From NCBI GenBank assembly GCA_030431455.1, contig JAUIJE010000017.1:62001-126000 (forward strand): a DNA stretch of 64,000 nt, given 5' to 3'. The notes beneath the pieces were generated by a model, which made no database searches, had not been told where the DNA came from, and saw only the letters and a program-made list of their open reading frames with translations. Position numbers and translations under genes: made by a program. Below are positions 14,622 through 21,353 of this stretch, one piece after another. The DNA is from a bacterium (lineage in GTDB: Bacteria > Myxococcota > UBA727 > JAUIJE01). The stretch's first letter is position 1. The number at the start of each line of letters is the position of its first letter.

Positions 14622-14816
14622 ATGATCGCGATGACCGAGTTGTCGCCCTCCGAAAAACAAGCCTTGCGCAAGAACACCGGCGTGCAGTTCGGCACCGACC
14701 GTCTGCTCGCGGCCCCCGGTGAGGGCAAAGGCCCCAAAGGCGTGCTCATCGTCGTCGCGGTGGTGCTGTTGGTGCTCGGCGTCGGCACCGCCATCGCGCT
14801 CTCCGCCGCCCAGTAG
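14622..14816 (+). CDS. Small single-pass membrane protein, 64 aa
   Basis: The peptide MIAMTELSPSEKQALRKN is followed by a hydrophilic stretch and one C-terminal membrane helix (GVLIVVAVVLLVLGVGTA). It is a tail-anchored-like small membrane protein. ATG 14631 (MTELSPSEK) is an equally good start. It lies 62 bp upstream of the AAA+ membrane protein on the same strand and could belong to that transcription unit. No family recognised. Confidence 0.5.
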   Translation: MIAMTELSPSEKQALRKNTGVQFGTDRLLAAPGEGKGPKGVLIVVAVVLLVLGVGTAIALSAAQ

Positions 14817-14878
14817 CCAAGATCGGCGGCGGGGAAAAACAGGGACCCCAGGGACAAACCTTCTAGACTCGCTCGACG

Positions 14879-17707
14879 ATGTTCGTGCTTCCGATCGTCC
14901 TGTGTTTCGCCGCCGATGTGGCCGTCGCTGAACAGCAAGCGGCGGCGTTCGTCGCGTTGTCGGAGAGCGAAGACGACGTCGAGGGGCCGCCTCCCCCGCC
15001 GGCGGTGGACGCGCCCGACGCGGGCCCCGACGCCGACGAGGTCGCGGCCGAGCGGCAGCGCGAGCAGGACCGCAAGGACGCCGAGGACAGCGCCGCCCGG
15101 GCCAAAAAGGCCGAAGCCGAGGCGGCCCAGAAAGCCGCCGCGGCCCAAGCCGCGATTCTCGTCGAGGTCTACGCCGCCGCCGGCCAGCTCCGGGTCCAGC
15201 AGGGCACGGCCGCGGACGCGCGGCTGCGCATGCAACAGGCGACCGACGCGGCCCGCGAGGCCCACGAGGCGGGCCGGGATCGGGCCCACGATCTGAAGGT
15301 GGCGGCGAACACCGCGCAGTCTTTGGACAAGCTGTTCGACCAAGCAGTGGAGGGCCAGGTCACGTCGTGGGACGCGATGGACAAGGCCTACCGCGATGCA
15401 GGCACATACGGAGACGAGACCTTGGCCGCGGTGCGCCGCAGCGTGCGGGACGCCGAGGTCGCACTCGACGACGTACAGAGCACCGGGAGCACCGACGGCC
15501 TCACCGACGCGCTCGCCGACCTCGGCGAAGCCCAGGCCGAGGTGAGCCGGGAAATCGCGCGGTTCGAAGAAGAGCGCGACCGGGTGTTCTTCGCGGTGGC
15601 GGAGGCGGCGGCCGAAGCGGCCCAGGCCTACCACGCGGCCCGGCTCGCGCTGTTGCCCAAGGTCAGCCGCGCCAAGTACGACCACCTGCACGAGCTCGGG
15701 GACCTCGACGCCCAGCAGAACCTGCGCGCCGCGTTCCGGCAAATCTGGCCTGGTCTCAAGTGGCACATGTGGATGCGGGCCCGGCAACTCATCGCCCTGC
15801 CCCACCGGCTGGTGAGCGAAGGGTTGTTCGTGACCTCGCTGCTGTTTGCCCTGATGCGCGCGCTGGTGGGGATCGCGGTGGGGGTGTGGCTGTACCGCCG
15901 TGTGCCGGCCGCGTTCAAGGCGTTGCGCTCGCGCTGGGTGGCCGCGGCCAAGACCGCGGTGGGCGCTCGTCAACGAGAGACGTTGGCCCAAGCCGCGGAG
16001 GCGGTGGGGCCGTTTGTGCTGCTCGCGAGCGCCGCGTGGTTCGTCAGCGACAGTCTCAGCCGGGTGGGTCCGCGCATCGAAATCGGCGTATTCCTCGAGG
16101 TCGCCCTCTACATCTGGGGATACCGGGCCGCGGCAAAGCTATTGCACCTGGTGGTGGTCAAGCTCGCCCGCCGTCACCACCAGCTGGAGATGACCACCAA
16201 GCTGAAGGCTTTGCGTTCGGTGCGTCTGCTGATGCGCTACACCTTCGTGGCCGCCTATGTGCTGGGTCTGGTGCGCGGGCTCGTCGGCAGCGGGGTGGTC
16301 ACCGCCAACGTGCAGCGCGCCCTCGTCGTCGGCTTCGCGGGCTGTTGTTTGCTGGTCGCGTACCGGTGGCGCAACGAGATCCACCAAGAATACAAACGCC
16401 AACAACCCGCGGGCCGACTGGCCGAGACCATGGACAAGCGCGGCACCGCTGGCGCCGGCTTTGTCTACGTGTTGCCCGCCCTCGGCGCAGTGGTGGGCGC
16501 GGCCCTGATCGCGGTGGCGCGCGACTTCCTCCTCGGGTTCGAACAAGCCCGCCGGGCCTCGGCCTATCTGTTCCAGCTGCGCATCGAGCGCCAAGCCAAG
16601 GATCGGCCCGCCACCGAGGTGGTGATCGAGACCTTGCCCGACAAGGTCAAACAGAACTTCCTCGACGCGCCCAGCACGGATCGCGCGGTGACCATCGACC
16701 GATTCTCGGCCGTGCCCGACGTGGTCAAACGCATGACCGAAGACTGCGCCAACACCGGCCTGTTGCTCGTGCACGGCCCGTACGGCGTGGGCCGCACGAC
16801 GTGGCTCAAACACCTGGAGGAACAGCTCCAGCCCCAGCTCCCGGTCAAGTGGTGGGCCCCGCACCACCGCATGTCCACCGCGGCGGAATTTGTGCAAAGC
16901 GCGGCCGCGCTCTTCGAGGTCGAGCTGGGCCACGCCGGCCCCACCGTGCCCAGCCTCGTCGACGCCCTGGCCGACCAGCCCCCCACCGCGGTCCTCCTCG
17001 ACGGACTCGAGTGGCTCTTCCTGCGCGGGCTGGGCGGCTATGGCGCGCTCACCGCGCTGTTCGAGGTCGCGAGCGAGACGCAGAATCGGTTCTCGTGGGC
17101 GGTCACCGTGCCGCGCCCGGGCCTGCATTTCTTGTCCCAGTCCAAACGTCTGCTCGACCACGCCAGCCAAGTCATCGAGCTTCCCCGCTGGAACGAACAA
17201 GAAATCCGGCAGCTCATCCAGCGACGGCTCAAACGCTGCAACATCAACGTGAGCTTCGACGAGCTGCTGGTCCAAGCCGGCGACGCCGAACGGCCCGATG
17301 CCCACCTCGTCGACAACGAGGACGGCTACCTTCGGCTGCTGTGGACATTCTCCGACGGCAACCCGCGCATCGCCCAATACTTCTGGCTGCGTTCGCTCGT
17401 GCGGCAGAACGACCAGGACTTCAAGGTCCGGCGCTACACCGCCGCCTCCCCCGACGATCTCGAGGTCATCCCCGAGGGGGACCGGTTCATCCTCGCCGCC
17501 TTCGTGTTGCACCGCGCCCTCACCGCCCACGAGGCCGCCCGCGCCTGCAACCTGCCGCTGGCCCAGACCCAAGCCCACATCCGCCGCTGCGTCGAGCGGG
17601 GCATCTACGTGCCCTGTCCCGTCAGCCCCGATCGGTGGGTCATCGCGGTGGCGTGGTGGGAGGCGACCCTGCGCTTTTTGCGCCGCAAGAATCTTTTCAT
17701 GTCCTGA
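14879..17707 (+). CDS. Membrane AAA+/STAND-like P-loop protein with six TM helices
   Basis: 942 residues. Signal-like N-terminus, then an Ala/Glu-rich coiled coil (about 60-270), six hydrophobic segments (about 314-338, 375-390, 402-416, 451-470, 480-495, 527-555) and a C-terminal P-loop domain. The last TM segment (LGAVVGAALIAVARDFLLGF) resembles the pore helix of MscS channels. The Walker A is GPYGVGRTT (633-641), with Arg where Lys is usual; Walker B is AVLLDGLEW (Asp708); a sensor-2-like DGNPRIAQYF and a C-terminal winged-helix-like region (about 865-925) follow, as in ORC/ExeA-type AAA+ proteins. It sits 15 bp upstream of an MscS gene and is probably co-transcribed with it. No characterised homologue recognised. 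Confidence 0.7.
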   Translation: MFVLPIVLCFAADVAVAEQQAAAFVALSESEDDVEGPPPPPAVDAPDAGPDADEVAAERQREQDRKDAEDSAARAKKAEAEAAQKAAAAQAAILVEVYAAAGQLRVQQGTAADARLRMQQATDAAREAHEAGRDRAHDLKVAANTAQSLDKLFDQAVEGQVTSWDAMDKAYRDAGTYGDETLAAVRRSVRDAEVALDDVQSTGSTDGLTDALADLGEAQAEVSREIARFEEERDRVFFAVAEAAAEAAQAYHAARLALLPKVSRAKYDHLHELGDLDAQQNLRAAFRQIWPGLKWHMWMRARQLIALPHRLVSEGLFVTSLLFALMRALVGIAVGVWLYRRVPAAFKALRSRWVAAAKTAVGARQRETLAQAAEAVGPFVLLASAAWFVSDSLSRVGPRIEIGVFLEVALYIWGYRAAAKLLHLVVVKLARRHHQLEMTTKLKALRSVRLLMRYTFVAAYVLGLVRGLVGSGVVTANVQRALVVGFAGCCLLVAYRWRNEIHQEYKRQQPAGRLAETMDKRGTAGAGFVYVLPALGAVVGAALIAVARDFLLGFEQARRASAYLFQLRIERQAKDRPATEVVIETLPDKVKQNFLDAPSTDRAVTIDRFSAVPDVVKRMTEDCANTGLLLVHGPYGVGRTTWLKHLEEQLQPQLPVKWWAPHHRMSTAAEFVQSAAALFEVELGHAGPTVPSLVDALADQPPTAVLLDGLEWLFLRGLGGYGALTALFEVASETQNRFSWAVTVPRPGLHFLSQSKRLLDHASQVIELPRWNEQEIRQLIQRRLKRCNINVSFDELLVQAGDAERPDAHLVDNEDGYLRLLWTFSDGNPRIAQYFWLRSLVRQNDQDFKVRRYTAASPDDLEVIPEGDRFILAAFVLHRALTAHEAARACNLPLAQTQAHIRRCVERGIYVPCPVSPDRWVIAVAWWEATLRFLRRKNLFMS

Positions 17708-17722
17708 GCCGAGGAGGCCACC

Positions 17723-18568
17723 ATGGAACTGCAAAACGTCCAATCTGTGCTCGGCATGATCCGGGTGGGCGGGCTCATCACCGCCGGGGTCGTGCTGCTC
17801 TTCACGGTTTTGCTCGCGCGCACCCTCACGTCGGTCTTGGTTCGCGCGGGCGATCGTTTCTTGGAGCGGCGCTTGTTGCTCAACCAGGTTGCGGCGTTTG
17901 TGCGGTTCGGGGTGTATTTCATCGGCATCCTCCTCGCGGTGGTGAGCGCGGTGGAGCTTCGCCAAGAGACCATCCTCGCGTTGTCGGGGACCATCGCCCT
18001 CGCCCTCGGGTTCGCCCTCAAGGACCTCGCGAGCTCCGTGCTCGCGGGCCTCACCATCCTTATCGACAAGCCATTCCAAGTCGGGGACCGCATCATGGCC
18101 GACGGGACGTACGGCGACGTCGTGGCCATCGGTCTGCGGTCGGTGCGCATCGCCACCCTCGACGACAACCTCGTCACCATTCCCAGCAGCCGCTTCCTCA
18201 CCGACAAGGTGTCCAGCGGCAACGCCGGAGAGCTGAACATGCTCGTGCAGATGGATTTTTTCATCGGCATGGATCAGAACGTCGAGCGCGGGGTGCAAAT
18301 CCTCGAGGAGGTGCTCACCGGTTCGCGGTTCTGCTACCTGAAAAAGCCCTGGGTGGTGCTCGTCAACCAAGTCGAGACCGGCGGCCACTTCGCGGTCCGG
18401 CTCCGGGCCAAGGCCTACGTGCTCGACACCCACTACGAAAAGCCGTTTGAAAGCGACGTGACCCGCCGCTTGATGAAGGCGTTCGCGGCCGAGAACATCC
18501 TGCCCCCCGCGCGGCTCGTGCGCGTGGTCGGCGGCGACGCGCCCCCGACCATGGAACTGGTGGCCTGA
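17723..18568 (+). CDS. MscS-family mechanosensitive ion channel
   Basis: 281 residues with GAGGAGG ahead of ATG 17723. Three hydrophobic segments precede the MscS pore helix (LSGTIALALGFALKDLASS) and the beta domain (KPFQVGDRIMADGTYGDV, IPSSRFLTD). The length is near that of E. coli MscS (286). Family members open under membrane tension to release osmolytes. Here the gene directly follows the AAA+ membrane protein, so gating or assembly may be coupled to that protein; this is inference. Confidence 0.9.
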   Translation: MELQNVQSVLGMIRVGGLITAGVVLLFTVLLARTLTSVLVRAGDRFLERRLLLNQVAAFVRFGVYFIGILLAVVSAVELRQETILALSGTIALALGFALKDLASSVLAGLTILIDKPFQVGDRIMADGTYGDVVAIGLRSVRIATLDDNLVTIPSSRFLTDKVSSGNAGELNMLVQMDFFIGMDQNVERGVQILEEVLTGSRFCYLKKPWVVLVNQVETGGHFAVRLRAKAYVLDTHYEKPFESDVTRRLMKAFAAENILPPARLVRVVGGDAPPTMELVA

Positions 18569-18977
18569 CCGTCCGCGCCCTGGCGCGCAGCCTCCGCCAC
18601 CCTGGCGCGGCGCGAACCCAGTTCCATTGGCGCAGACCGGTCACATCCTTTTTGCGCCCGCCATCTCAGTCTGCCCGCGGTCCGGCCACGTCTTTTTTGC
18701 GCAGGCCCACCCACAATCGGGTGGGCGGATCGCCCCACCCCCGCCGCCACGAAAGGACAAAACCTTCTCGTGCCGCACCGTGTGGGCAGCCAAAAAAAAA
18801 AAAAAAAAAAAAAAAATGTGTGACGCGTCTTCTCTGCATCCGGGCCGGAGACCGCCCGGTTGCGGCAGGCCCGGCCTGCTGAACTAATTTACCCTATGTT
18901 TCAAATACTTACGGCCTCGCCAGGGGACCGGATCTGGCCCCCGGCGGGCCGTCGGCCCATCCCGTAGAATCCTGTGC
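18569..18977. other. 409-bp intergenic with a 23-bp direct repeat and an A26 tract
   Basis: No convincing gene. It holds two imperfect 23-bp direct copies (18636-18658 and 18681-18703; 19 of 23 identical, ending TTTTTGCGC), 45 bp apart, then an A-tract of 26 bases, and finally an AT-rich segment (18885-18912) that may be the promoter of the downstream lipoprotein. Confidence 0.6.
18792..18817. repeat. Homopolymer (A)26
   Basis: Twenty-six consecutive A residues in otherwise GC-rich DNA. It could bend DNA or phase-vary promoter spacing by slippage; it could also be a sequencing or assembly fault. Confidence 0.85.
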
Positions 18978-21353
18978 ATGAGGTGTACGCGGACCTTCGT
19001 CGTCGTGGCGGCGCTGGCGAGCGGGGCGTGCGGCGAGCCGCCCCGGGCCACGACGTCGCTGTCCCCCGGTGACATCGCGCCCCCCGCGCTGGCCGCGCCG
19101 GTGGTGGTGGCCCGCTACGACGCCGCGCGCCACGATGTACCGCTGCCCAATGACCTGTACCGCGGCAGCCAGGTGCTGTCCGTGCCTGCCGAGGCCGCCC
19201 AGAGCGACGCCGAGGCCGACCTGTTCGCGCGGCTGCGGGGGGTGAGCGGCTACTTCGCGCAGAGCGCGATTTCGTTCCCGTTGTCCGGCCCGCTCGACGA
19301 AGCCACGGTGGCGGGCGCGACCCTGCTGTTCAACCCTGACACCCAAGCGGTGGTCGCACACAGTATCATTGTGCGGCCGGACGCGGTGGTGCTCGTGCCC
19401 GACGCCCCCCTGAGCCGCTCGTCACGGTTTGTCGCCGCGTTGCGCCAAGGCCCCACCGGGCCCGCGGGCGAGCCCTTCGTGCGCGACGAGGCGTACCAGG
19501 CCTACGCCGAGGGCCGGGGGGCCGCGTATGAGCTGCGGGCCGAGGCCGGGGTCACCGCCGCGCTCGCCGCGGTGCAAAGCCGGGGCATCGACCCCGACGA
19601 GATCGTGGTCAGCACGCTGTTCACGGTCACCGACGACGATGCGTTCCCGTTTGGGACCGGTCCCGAGGACACGCCGTTCCCTTCCCTCGCGCACATGAGC
19701 GCGCTGGGGCTGTCCATCCCCGGGCCGACCTTCGCCGCCCAGTTCGCCGATGCCCTCGTCGGGTACGACGGCTTTGGCACCCAGAGCCCGGTGCAGTTCC
19801 CGTTCCCCGAGCCCGCGGCCAACAACGCCGCGCTCCACAACGCCATGGCCCTGTACACCGTCGACGACGACGGCCTGCGGCCGGTCGAGGCCACCCACAC
19901 CGGGACGTTCGCCGGCGGCGGCACCATCGCGCCCACCGCCGCCCTCGCCCCCGAACAGGACGTGGTCGCGGCCCTGCACACCGGGCCCACCGCCGGCGGC
20001 CGGCTGTTCACCCCCGGGCTCACCCTGTTGGCGGTCACCTCTCCCGCTCCGCTCACCGACGACGACGGCCGCTCCACGGTGCGGCTGATCGCCGATGCCC
20101 GCGCCGCGGAGCTCGAGACCCTGCGGCCGGCCTACGCCGAGGCGGCGCTGTTCCTCGACGCCGACGGCACCCCGCGCGACGAGCTGCTCGCCCTGTCCCG
20201 CTATCCCCTGTTGCACCCCAAGACCCGGGTCCTGGCCATGCGCCAGGCGCTCTACGACCAGCAGGTCGACCCCACGCCCCACAACCTGCTGGTGGCCACC
20301 CCCGAGGAGCGCGGCATTCCCTTCGTGCTCAGCGACGTCGACACCGTGGTCACCGGCGACATCACCACCCTCGACTTCCTCGCCGGCGACAGCGTGGCCT
20401 TGTCGGTGTACGCCGAAGAGACGCCGGTGGACTTCATCCTCACCATCCCCGACGGCACCACCCCCGGCACCCCCATCCCGGTGGTGCTGTTCGGCCACGG
20501 GCTGTTCACCACCCGCGAGCTTGTCTACCTCGCCGCCGACTTCCTCGCCGCCGCGGGGTTCGCCGCGTTGTGCATCGACTTTCCCCTCCACGGCAAGCGC
20601 ACCCCGTGCCTGCAAAGCAGCGACTGCACCCAAGACGCGATGTGCGAGGCCGACGGGATGTGCCGCACCCCCGACGGCTCCGAGGTGCCGGTGGCCTCGG
20701 TCCAGAGCCCGTGGCCGGGAGGCCCGGCGGTGCCGGTGGCCACGGGCCGGGCGTTCATCAACCTGCAGACCCCGGCCAAGACCCGCGACCACTTCCTCCA
20801 GGGCCTCGTCGACCTCTCCCAGGCGGTGCGCTCGATCCAACTCGCGGACTGGGCCGGGTCCACCGGCTACACCCTCGACGGCAATGACATTGTGTACTTG
20901 GGCATGAGCCTGGGCGGCATCTATGGCGCGTCCTTTTCCGCCATCGAAGACCAAATCGGCAGCTTCGCCCTCAACGTGCCGGGGGCGGGCCTCGTCGACC
21001 TCATGCAAGAGAGCCAAGCCCTGCTCCCCGACGTGCAGGACTTCGCGTTCCAGACCGGGACCCTGCCCGGCACCGAAGCCCACTTCGCCTACGTGAGCAC
21101 CGCCCGGTGGATCTTCGACCTCGCCGACCCGCAAAATCTCGTGCGCCCCCACCCGGGCAAGCGCTACCTCATCCAAATGGCCAACGGCGACGAGATGGTC
21201 TCCAACGACGCCACCCACCGGCTCGCCGATGCGCTGGGCGAGCCCATTCAGGAGTACTTCCCGCTGCTCGGGCACGCGTTCTTGTTCGATCCCACGTCGT
21301 TGGAATCCGAGGCCGCCCGCGACGAGATCATCGCGTTCTTCGCCGCCCGCTAG
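18978..21353 (+). CDS. Alpha/beta-hydrolase lipoprotein (virulence-factor-lipase-like)
   Basis: 791 residues. The signal peptide has a lipobox-like SGAC followed by a Thr/Ser-rich linker. The N-terminal 400 residues are beta-rich and resemble the N-terminal region of bacterial extracellular 'virulence factor' lipases (start of mature part: PLPNDLYRG). The catalytic half has GHGLFTTREL (oxyanion HG), the nucleophile elbow GMSLGG and a late His (LLGHAFLFD). It should be an outer-membrane-anchored esterase or lipase. A Cys-rich insertion (TPCLQSSDCTQDAMCEADG) suggests disulfides. It is convergent with a paralogue at 21455. Confidence 0.82.
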   Translation: MRCTRTFVVVAALASGACGEPPRATTSLSPGDIAPPALAAPVVVARYDAARHDVPLPNDLYRGSQVLSVPAEAAQSDAEADLFARLRGVSGYFAQSAISFPLSGPLDEATVAGATLLFNPDTQAVVAHSIIVRPDAVVLVPDAPLSRSSRFVAALRQGPTGPAGEPFVRDEAYQAYAEGRGAAYELRAEAGVTAALAAVQSRGIDPDEIVVSTLFTVTDDDAFPFGTGPEDTPFPSLAHMSALGLSIPGPTFAAQFADALVGYDGFGTQSPVQFPFPEPAANNAALHNAMALYTVDDDGLRPVEATHTGTFAGGGTIAPTAALAPEQDVVAALHTGPTAGGRLFTPGLTLLAVTSPAPLTDDDGRSTVRLIADARAAELETLRPAYAEAALFLDADGTPRDELLALSRYPLLHPKTRVLAMRQALYDQQVDPTPHNLLVATPEERGIPFVLSDVDTVVTGDITTLDFLAGDSVALSVYAEETPVDFILTIPDGTTPGTPIPVVLFGHGLFTTRELVYLAADFLAAAGFAALCIDFPLHGKRTPCLQSSDCTQDAMCEADGMCRTPDGSEVPVASVQSPWPGGPAVPVATGRAFINLQTPAKTRDHFLQGLVDLSQAVRSIQLADWAGSTGYTLDGNDIVYLGMSLGGIYGASFSAIEDQIGSFALNVPGAGLVDLMQESQALLPDVQDFAFQTGTLPGTEAHFAYVSTARWIFDLADPQNLVRPHPGKRYLIQMANGDEMVSNDATHRLADALGEPIQEYFPLLGHAFLFDPTSLESEAARDEIIAFFAAR

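Follow-up and report, generated by a model that had tools for sequence, protein, structure and literature searches.

Directly downstream of a gene for a membrane-anchored AAA+ protein (hereafter, the ATPase), the 64,000-nucleotide (nt) stretch of Myxococcota DNA analyzed here (the window; contig JAUIJE010000017.1 of assembly GCA_030431455.1) encodes a mechanosensitive channel of the MscS family. MscS channels are the textbook case of opening by membrane tension alone. We found that this channel belongs to a distinct MscS subfamily that occurs paired with the ATPase in several bacterial phyla, that the two genes are inherited together, and that the C-terminal module of the ATPase, an AAA+ domain followed by a winged helix, is shared among proteins of K+, Cl-, and osmotic transport. 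These data make it probable that the MscS channel and a dedicated AAA+ regulatory subunit constitute one functional unit for osmotic control. The two genes lie on the same strand with 15 nt between them, and the ATPase gene is present as a single copy in the 7.7-Mb source genome:

14879-17707, + strand: gene for the membrane-anchored AAA+ (ORC/Cdc6-like) protein, a 942-amino acid (aa) open reading frame (ORF) with an ATG start; conserved upstream partner of MscS
17711-17717, + strand: Shine-Dalgarno-like GAGGAGG for the MscS gene, 5 nt before its ATG, read from the sequence
17723-18568, + strand: MscS gene, a 281-aa ORF with an ATG start; member of a distinct subfamily that is dedicated to its AAA+ partner

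Conserved pairing and co-inheritance

Within a set of 97 genomes of the same phylum, which are related to each other, full-length homologues of the ATPase occurred in seven other genomes (24-30% identity), i.e., in 8 of 97 in total, while three further matches covered the P-loop domain only, within other proteins. Some MscS protein was carried by 94 of these genomes. The MscS subfamily of the window (45-52% identity, E below 1e-60; next-best MscS outside the subfamily, 3.7e-27) was found in exactly the same eight genomes as the ATPase, always directly after it. The chance of such an eight-genome co-occurrence is ~7e-12 when phylogeny is ignored.

The pairing extends far beyond this phylum. We scanned GTDB r220 at one genome per species (84,980 species genomes), with the eight MscS proteins aligned as the query, and inspected the best 80 of 471 relatives, such that looser MscS relatives may be unpaired. 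The ATPase lay directly upstream and on the same strand in 79 of these 80 loci, and the exception (L087) displayed a run of N at that place. The hosts included Myxococcota, Acidobacteriota, Solimonas, Paraperlucidibaca, Psychromonas, Vibrio, Aliivibrio, Shewanella, and Croceicoccus, thus including Gamma- and Alphaproteobacteria. A scan of the contigs of the species genomes with a single ATPase sequence gave no match, because the ATPase diverges too fast. In plasmid records, independently run queries, one from a Vibrio ATPase and one from the window MscS, met on the same three replicons, two from Novosphingobium and one from Caulobacter, with the genes adjacent in each; on the Caulobacter plasmid, the ATPase gene is followed by two MscS genes in tandem (L145:5824-7667).

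All 90 pairs for which we compared the layout were same-strand, with the MscS domain starting 5-268 nt past the ATPase stop. From the opposite direction, a profile of the C-terminal module was searched against 195 genomes (again related to each other, with co-occurrence probabilities that ignore phylogeny), and each of the 13 module genes of the transmembrane (TM) type adjoined MscS. A mirror-tree comparison of ATPase and MscS yielded r = 0.889, a value that none of 999 permutations reached. No third neighbor gene was conserved beyond close relatives; only the pair was kept. The pairing, at ~95 loci, exceeds chance. The initial annotation of this locus had taken its reading to be refuted if ATPase homologues never adjoined MscS genes; we observed the two side by side in 8 of 8 genomes, in 79 of 79 assessable loci, and in 3 of 3 plasmid pairs.

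Architecture of the two proteins

The ATPase runs from a signal-like N terminus through a helical/coiled-coil stretch, a membrane region, and a linker into the AAA+ module and its winged helix. The coiled coil differs in length among members and is nearly absent in one of them (L017). The features of the two proteins are:

14879-14929, + strand: signal-peptide-like N terminus (MFVLPIVLCFAADVAVA), from the sequence; other members also have a hydrophobic signal-like start
15035-15793, + strand: long helical/coiled-coil region, residues ~53-305, presumed periplasmic
15821-16597, + strand: membrane domain, residues ~315-573, with five strong TM helices, a weaker sixth (re-entrant or interfacial), and a cytoplasmic helix
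16631-17704, + strand: AAA+ plus winged-helix module, residues ~585-942, from the predicted structure and the module profile
16775-16798, + strand: Walker A GPYGVGRT, its Lys replaced by Arg639, from the sequence and the module alignment
16988-17011, + strand: Walker B AVLLDGLE (D708), from the sequence and the module alignment
17450-17686, + strand: C-terminal winged-helix domain, residues ~858-936, from the predicted structure
17960-18022, + strand: TM3a pore helix of MscS (TILALSGTIALALGFALKD), from the alignment; family motif G-T...GFA-(K/R)-D

An AlphaFold2 model built with 63 homologues reached a mean predicted local distance difference test score (pLDDT) of 90 and a predicted template-modeling score (pTM) of 0.75 over residues 252-942, superseding an earlier model from eight sequences (pLDDT 69 only). 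Its best Foldseek matches were Cdc6/ORC (E down to 4.4e-8, for Cdc6), RuvB, ORC2, and RFC, with moderate TM-scores (~0.5 by target), and Foldseek with the first ATPase model also ranked TnsC, MuB, Apaf-1, CED-4, NLRs, and Avs4. By its predicted structure, the C-terminal module is an ORC/Cdc6/TnsC-class AAA+ fold with a C-terminal winged helix, in agreement with the initial annotation, which had read this protein as a coiled coil, a TM region, and an ORC-like P-loop domain with a winged helix. The sequence profile of the module matched mostly the P-loops of Clp, Hsp104, and Midasin in the PDB, with a weak Cdc6 match, which indicates AAA+ class membership only. The coiled coil had a sole phmmer match in the PDB, to a synthetic PPR repeat, which we judged spurious. 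In placing the winged helix past the AAA+ lid, the module resembles ORC1/Cdc6, TnsC, MuB, RuvB, and STAND ATPases such as Apaf-1; unlike them, it is membrane anchored and paired with ion transport, its motifs are often degenerate, and there is no sign of a DNA role.

The family-averaged hydrophobicity of the ATPase displayed five strong TM peaks, whose flanks fit the positive-inside rule (N-out, C-in), and a weaker sixth peak at residues ~525-552. Because a sixth crossing would put the AAA+ domain on the outer side of the membrane, we read the sixth helix as re-entrant or interfacial, and a topology of five crossings plus such a helix, with a cytosolic AAA+ domain, fits the data. Of the six TM helices counted initially, five thus stand, while the sixth is weaker, and an even count, given a periplasmic N terminus, would imply an AAA+ domain on that same side. 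The suggestion that the last helix resembles the MscS pore helix was not supported: In a profile-profile comparison (hhalign) between the paired MscS proteins and 84 sequences of the ATPase TM region, the probability was 0.4% and the alignment fell elsewhere. With the E. coli channels MscK (KefA) and MscM, the same region gave an hhalign probability of 3.6%, i.e., no detectable homology, and the ATPase had no Pfam MscS_porin or MscS_TM match.

The catalytic motifs of the window ATPase are degenerate: R639 stands in for the Walker A Lys, as noted initially, and D708-G replaces the D-E of Walker B, such that intact Walker A and B motifs are lacking. Across 98 aligned modules, 97 of which could be scored at Walker A, the Lys position held K in 66 modules and R in 9; another 21, mostly from Vibrionales, had T, A, or S. 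The Walker B Asp was kept in 86 of 97 modules and followed by Glu in only 4, whereas the lid-region Arg was retained in 93 and G-N-P in most. Given GPYGVGRT and LLDGLE, the window ATPase is probably a poor or dead hydrolase, and the family as a whole probably is not. The Lys-to-Arg exchange, from which the initial annotation had proposed that the domain may bind but not hydrolyze nucleotide, applies to this lineage and not to the family, with K in 66 of 97. Since the Walker A Lys was lost in several lineages, including that of the window, hydrolysis cycles are probably not essential, and nucleotide binding or a scaffolding role of the module is more likely.

The second gene encodes, as had been proposed, a complete MscS channel 15 nt past the first. 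It matched Pfam MS_channel_2nd (PF00924) at E = 4.3e-17 (62.4 bits versus a cut-off of 20.2) and is 23% identical to E. coli MscS across 252 aa. Alignment with E. coli MscS and MscK (residues 18-262) revealed TM1-TM3, with a small-residue TM3a pore helix, and the C-terminal cage. The paired channels as a group retain the small residues of the pore helix and share two hallmarks, G-T in TM3a and GFA-(K/R)-D, with Asp at the position of E. coli Gly113 in 90 of 90 and Lys or Arg at that of Gln112 in 89 of 90.

The module on other ion transporters

The survey of 195 genomes also located the module outside the MscS pairs. In four proteins (L019, L021, L133, and L138), an N-terminal Kef/Na+-H+ exchanger (Na_H_Exchanger) is fused through a long helical region to the AAA+ module; the two of these fusions that were scanned for a TrkA_N domain had no match. 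Three further proteins carry the module behind an N-terminal K-Cl cotransporter (SLC12). One of them is encoded in the source genome itself (L141, G000:C16:367866-373091) and consists, over 1742 aa, of the cotransporter (TIGR00930, 3.9e-106), a long helical region, and the module, and the other two (L139 and L142) are similar. At two loci (L020:10200-16015 and L140:5413-11390), trkA and trkH are directly followed by a module gene, which encodes a soluble helical protein with no TM helix and the AAA+ module at the end. One remaining match was a fragment. The 530- to 560-aa ORFs beside Vibrio pairs that the module profile picked up at E ~1e-4 were set aside, as the one that we read (at L126) is an ABC-F protein that shares only the P-loop.

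A minimal form of the arrangement occurred once in the plasmid collection. On a plasmid of the haloarchaeon Salinirubellus (NZ_CP147842.1; L144:3943-5744), an MscS gene (36% identity) overlaps by 4 nt with a gene for a soluble 331-aa protein, annotated as hypothetical, in which the module is the only recognizable domain. In a tree of the modules, those paired with MscS formed one clade (SH-like approximate likelihood-ratio test support, 99), with the transporter-linked and haloarchaeal modules on the other side on long branches. At six proteobacterial loci from relatives of Solimonas and Paraperlucidibaca (L058, L062, L071, L072, L075, and L077), the ATPase-MscS pair is directly followed by a K+ channel-like gene with RCK-like sequence, with the TVGYGD filter motif seen in five. 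The attachment of the module to K+ and Cl- transporters suggests that it is a common control unit for osmotic balance.

Proposed function and alternatives

Because the TM-type ATPase pairs exclusively with MscS, and because the transporters that carry the module share one theme (K+, Cl-, and turgor), the simplest view is that the module acts as a regulatory subunit that would report a cytosolic state to the transporter. The ATPase would be held in the inner membrane by its helical bundle, usually with a periplasmic coiled coil, such that the initiator-type AAA+/winged-helix module sits in the cytosol beside the cytoplasmic cage of MscS. The state of the module, i.e., whether nucleotide or another ligand is bound or which oligomeric state it adopts, would then set the opening, the tension threshold, or the open probability of MscS, and the release of ions or osmolytes would be tied to a cytosolic signal in addition to membrane tension. 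The periplasmic part of the ATPase may contribute an envelope signal. We infer physical contact between the ATPase and MscS and an effect on gating, along with its direction, its ligand, and its nucleotide dependence. With a little less confidence, we lean toward a wider reading in which the module serves ion and osmolyte transport in general as a previously unrecognized regulatory subunit, dedicated to an MscS subfamily across several bacterial phyla and in a haloarchaeon and, in Myxococcota, also placed on Kef, the K-Cl cotransporter, and Trk, with channel opening depending on the cytosolic nucleotide or ligand state. Three observations weigh against these proposals: The congruence of the mirror trees in part reflects shared ancestry, module partners other than MscS were found in few genomes, and the catalytic residues are degenerate in the window ATPase (Lys639Arg, Walker B Glu missing) and in Vibrionales, such that nucleotide dependence may not be general.

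An unlikely alternative is that the ATPase is an assembly or maturation factor, a MoxR-like chaperone, that assists the folding, insertion, or oligomerization of MscS and has no control over the gate. MoxR AAA+ proteins work on the assembly of other complexes (PMC3893208), and the AAA+ fold and the strict operon pairing are in line with such a role. The covalent fusion of the module to Kef and to the K-Cl cotransporter suits a permanent regulatory domain better, and Walker A is often degenerate, whereas chaperones need hydrolysis. Other MscS proteins, moreover, are not known to need a factor of this kind for their assembly.

Somewhat less probable still is a defense function, which the initial annotation had offered beside osmotic control and in which a STAND-like sensor would open the MscS pore to depolarize or kill an infected cell. 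The fold resembles STAND proteins (Apaf-1, CED-4, NLRs, and Avs4), the occurrence in Myxococcota is patchy, and some copies are plasmid-borne. The sequence scored below the STAND cut-offs (nSTAND_NTPase5, 17.9 bits versus 34; NACHT, 12.9 versus 26.7). PADLOC reported no corresponding system, only a chance-level JetC match for the window ATPase (E = 0.61), and a generic AAA model for one of eight family members. No phage relatives were found, the chromosomal neighbors of the pair are common to Vibrio species, and related modules sit on housekeeping K+ and Cl- transporters. With no PADLOC system, a syntenic chromosomal site in Vibrio, and housekeeping ion transporters as partners, we do not favor defense; the presence of the module on Kef, K-Cl cotransporter, and Trk K+ systems favors osmotic control.

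We also consider it improbable that the membrane domain, together with the coiled coil in the periplasm, is the true, MscK-like regulator, with the AAA+ domain left as a vestige or a structural scaffold. The layout does resemble that of MscK and MscM (a signal peptide, a coiled coil in the periplasm, additional TM helices, and an MscS core), and the AAA+ motifs of the window ATPase are degenerate. Yet the module is kept where the coil is nearly absent (L017) or where both TM region and coil are absent (the haloarchaeal form), many of its motifs are still conserved, and the TM region has no detectable MscK/MscM homology. That the two genes are merely co-transcribed and functionally independent is highly improbable, as the pairing is exclusive at ~95 loci in several phyla with no other conserved neighbor.

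For an MscS channel with such a putative regulator, the closest known counterparts are MscK and the bCNG channels. MscK, annotated as potassium dependent, and MscM are, by their solved structures, among the relatives of the MscS half in the PDB. They share the layout described above, but in the present pair, the MscS core forms a protein of its own, no homology is detectable for the extra TM region, and an AAA+/winged-helix module is present in the cytosol. The bCNG channels are MscS proteins with a cyclic-nucleotide-binding domain and likewise put an MscS pore together with a regulator that binds a ligand in the cytosol; the proposed regulator of the window MscS belongs to a separate membrane protein and is an AAA+/winged-helix module instead. 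Neither MscK nor bCNG is known to have an AAA+ partner. TrkA/KTN and Kef regulation offers another parallel, as a cytosolic nucleotide-binding regulator of K+ transport whose operons can also contain the module, although KTN domains are Rossmann folds and unrelated to AAA+. KAP P-loop NTPases (Aravind 2004, cited in PMC13192273) also combine an NTPase with TM helices, which in KAP interrupt the NTPase domain; in the ATPase, they precede it, and no KAP Pfam match was obtained.

The ATPase itself gave only sub-threshold, generic AAA_22, nSTAND, and AAA_16 matches and no significant NCBIfam match, so that it does not coincide with an already named family; weak DUF677 and DnaI matches were disregarded. 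No Pfam, NCBIfam, or PADLOC entry describes the ATPase-MscS pair, nor did we find an account of it in the open-access full-text literature (subscription journals and preprints lay outside this scope), consistent with the initial statement that a coupling of such an NTPase to MscS lacks a described precedent. The pair would represent an MscS channel whose regulator is of a new kind. If this is true, a large MscS subfamily in Vibrio, Shewanella, Solimonas, Acidobacteriota, Myxococcota, and Alphaproteobacteria megaplasmids is also under cytosolic control, and the module on three other kinds of K+/Cl- transporters suggests an overlooked common signal for osmotic balance. Culturable hosts among the carriers make the system directly testable.

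As for the surroundings of the pair in the window, a promoter scan gave no match above chance. A small ORF at 14631-14817, 61 nt upstream of the ATPase gene, encodes a ~60-aa single-TM protein. Downstream of the pair, a long homopolymer A run (~18791-18816) precedes a 791-aa ORF (18978-21353) that partially resembles lipases of the VolA/Pla-1 family (TIGR03502, 9e-23), although the match stays below the cut-off.

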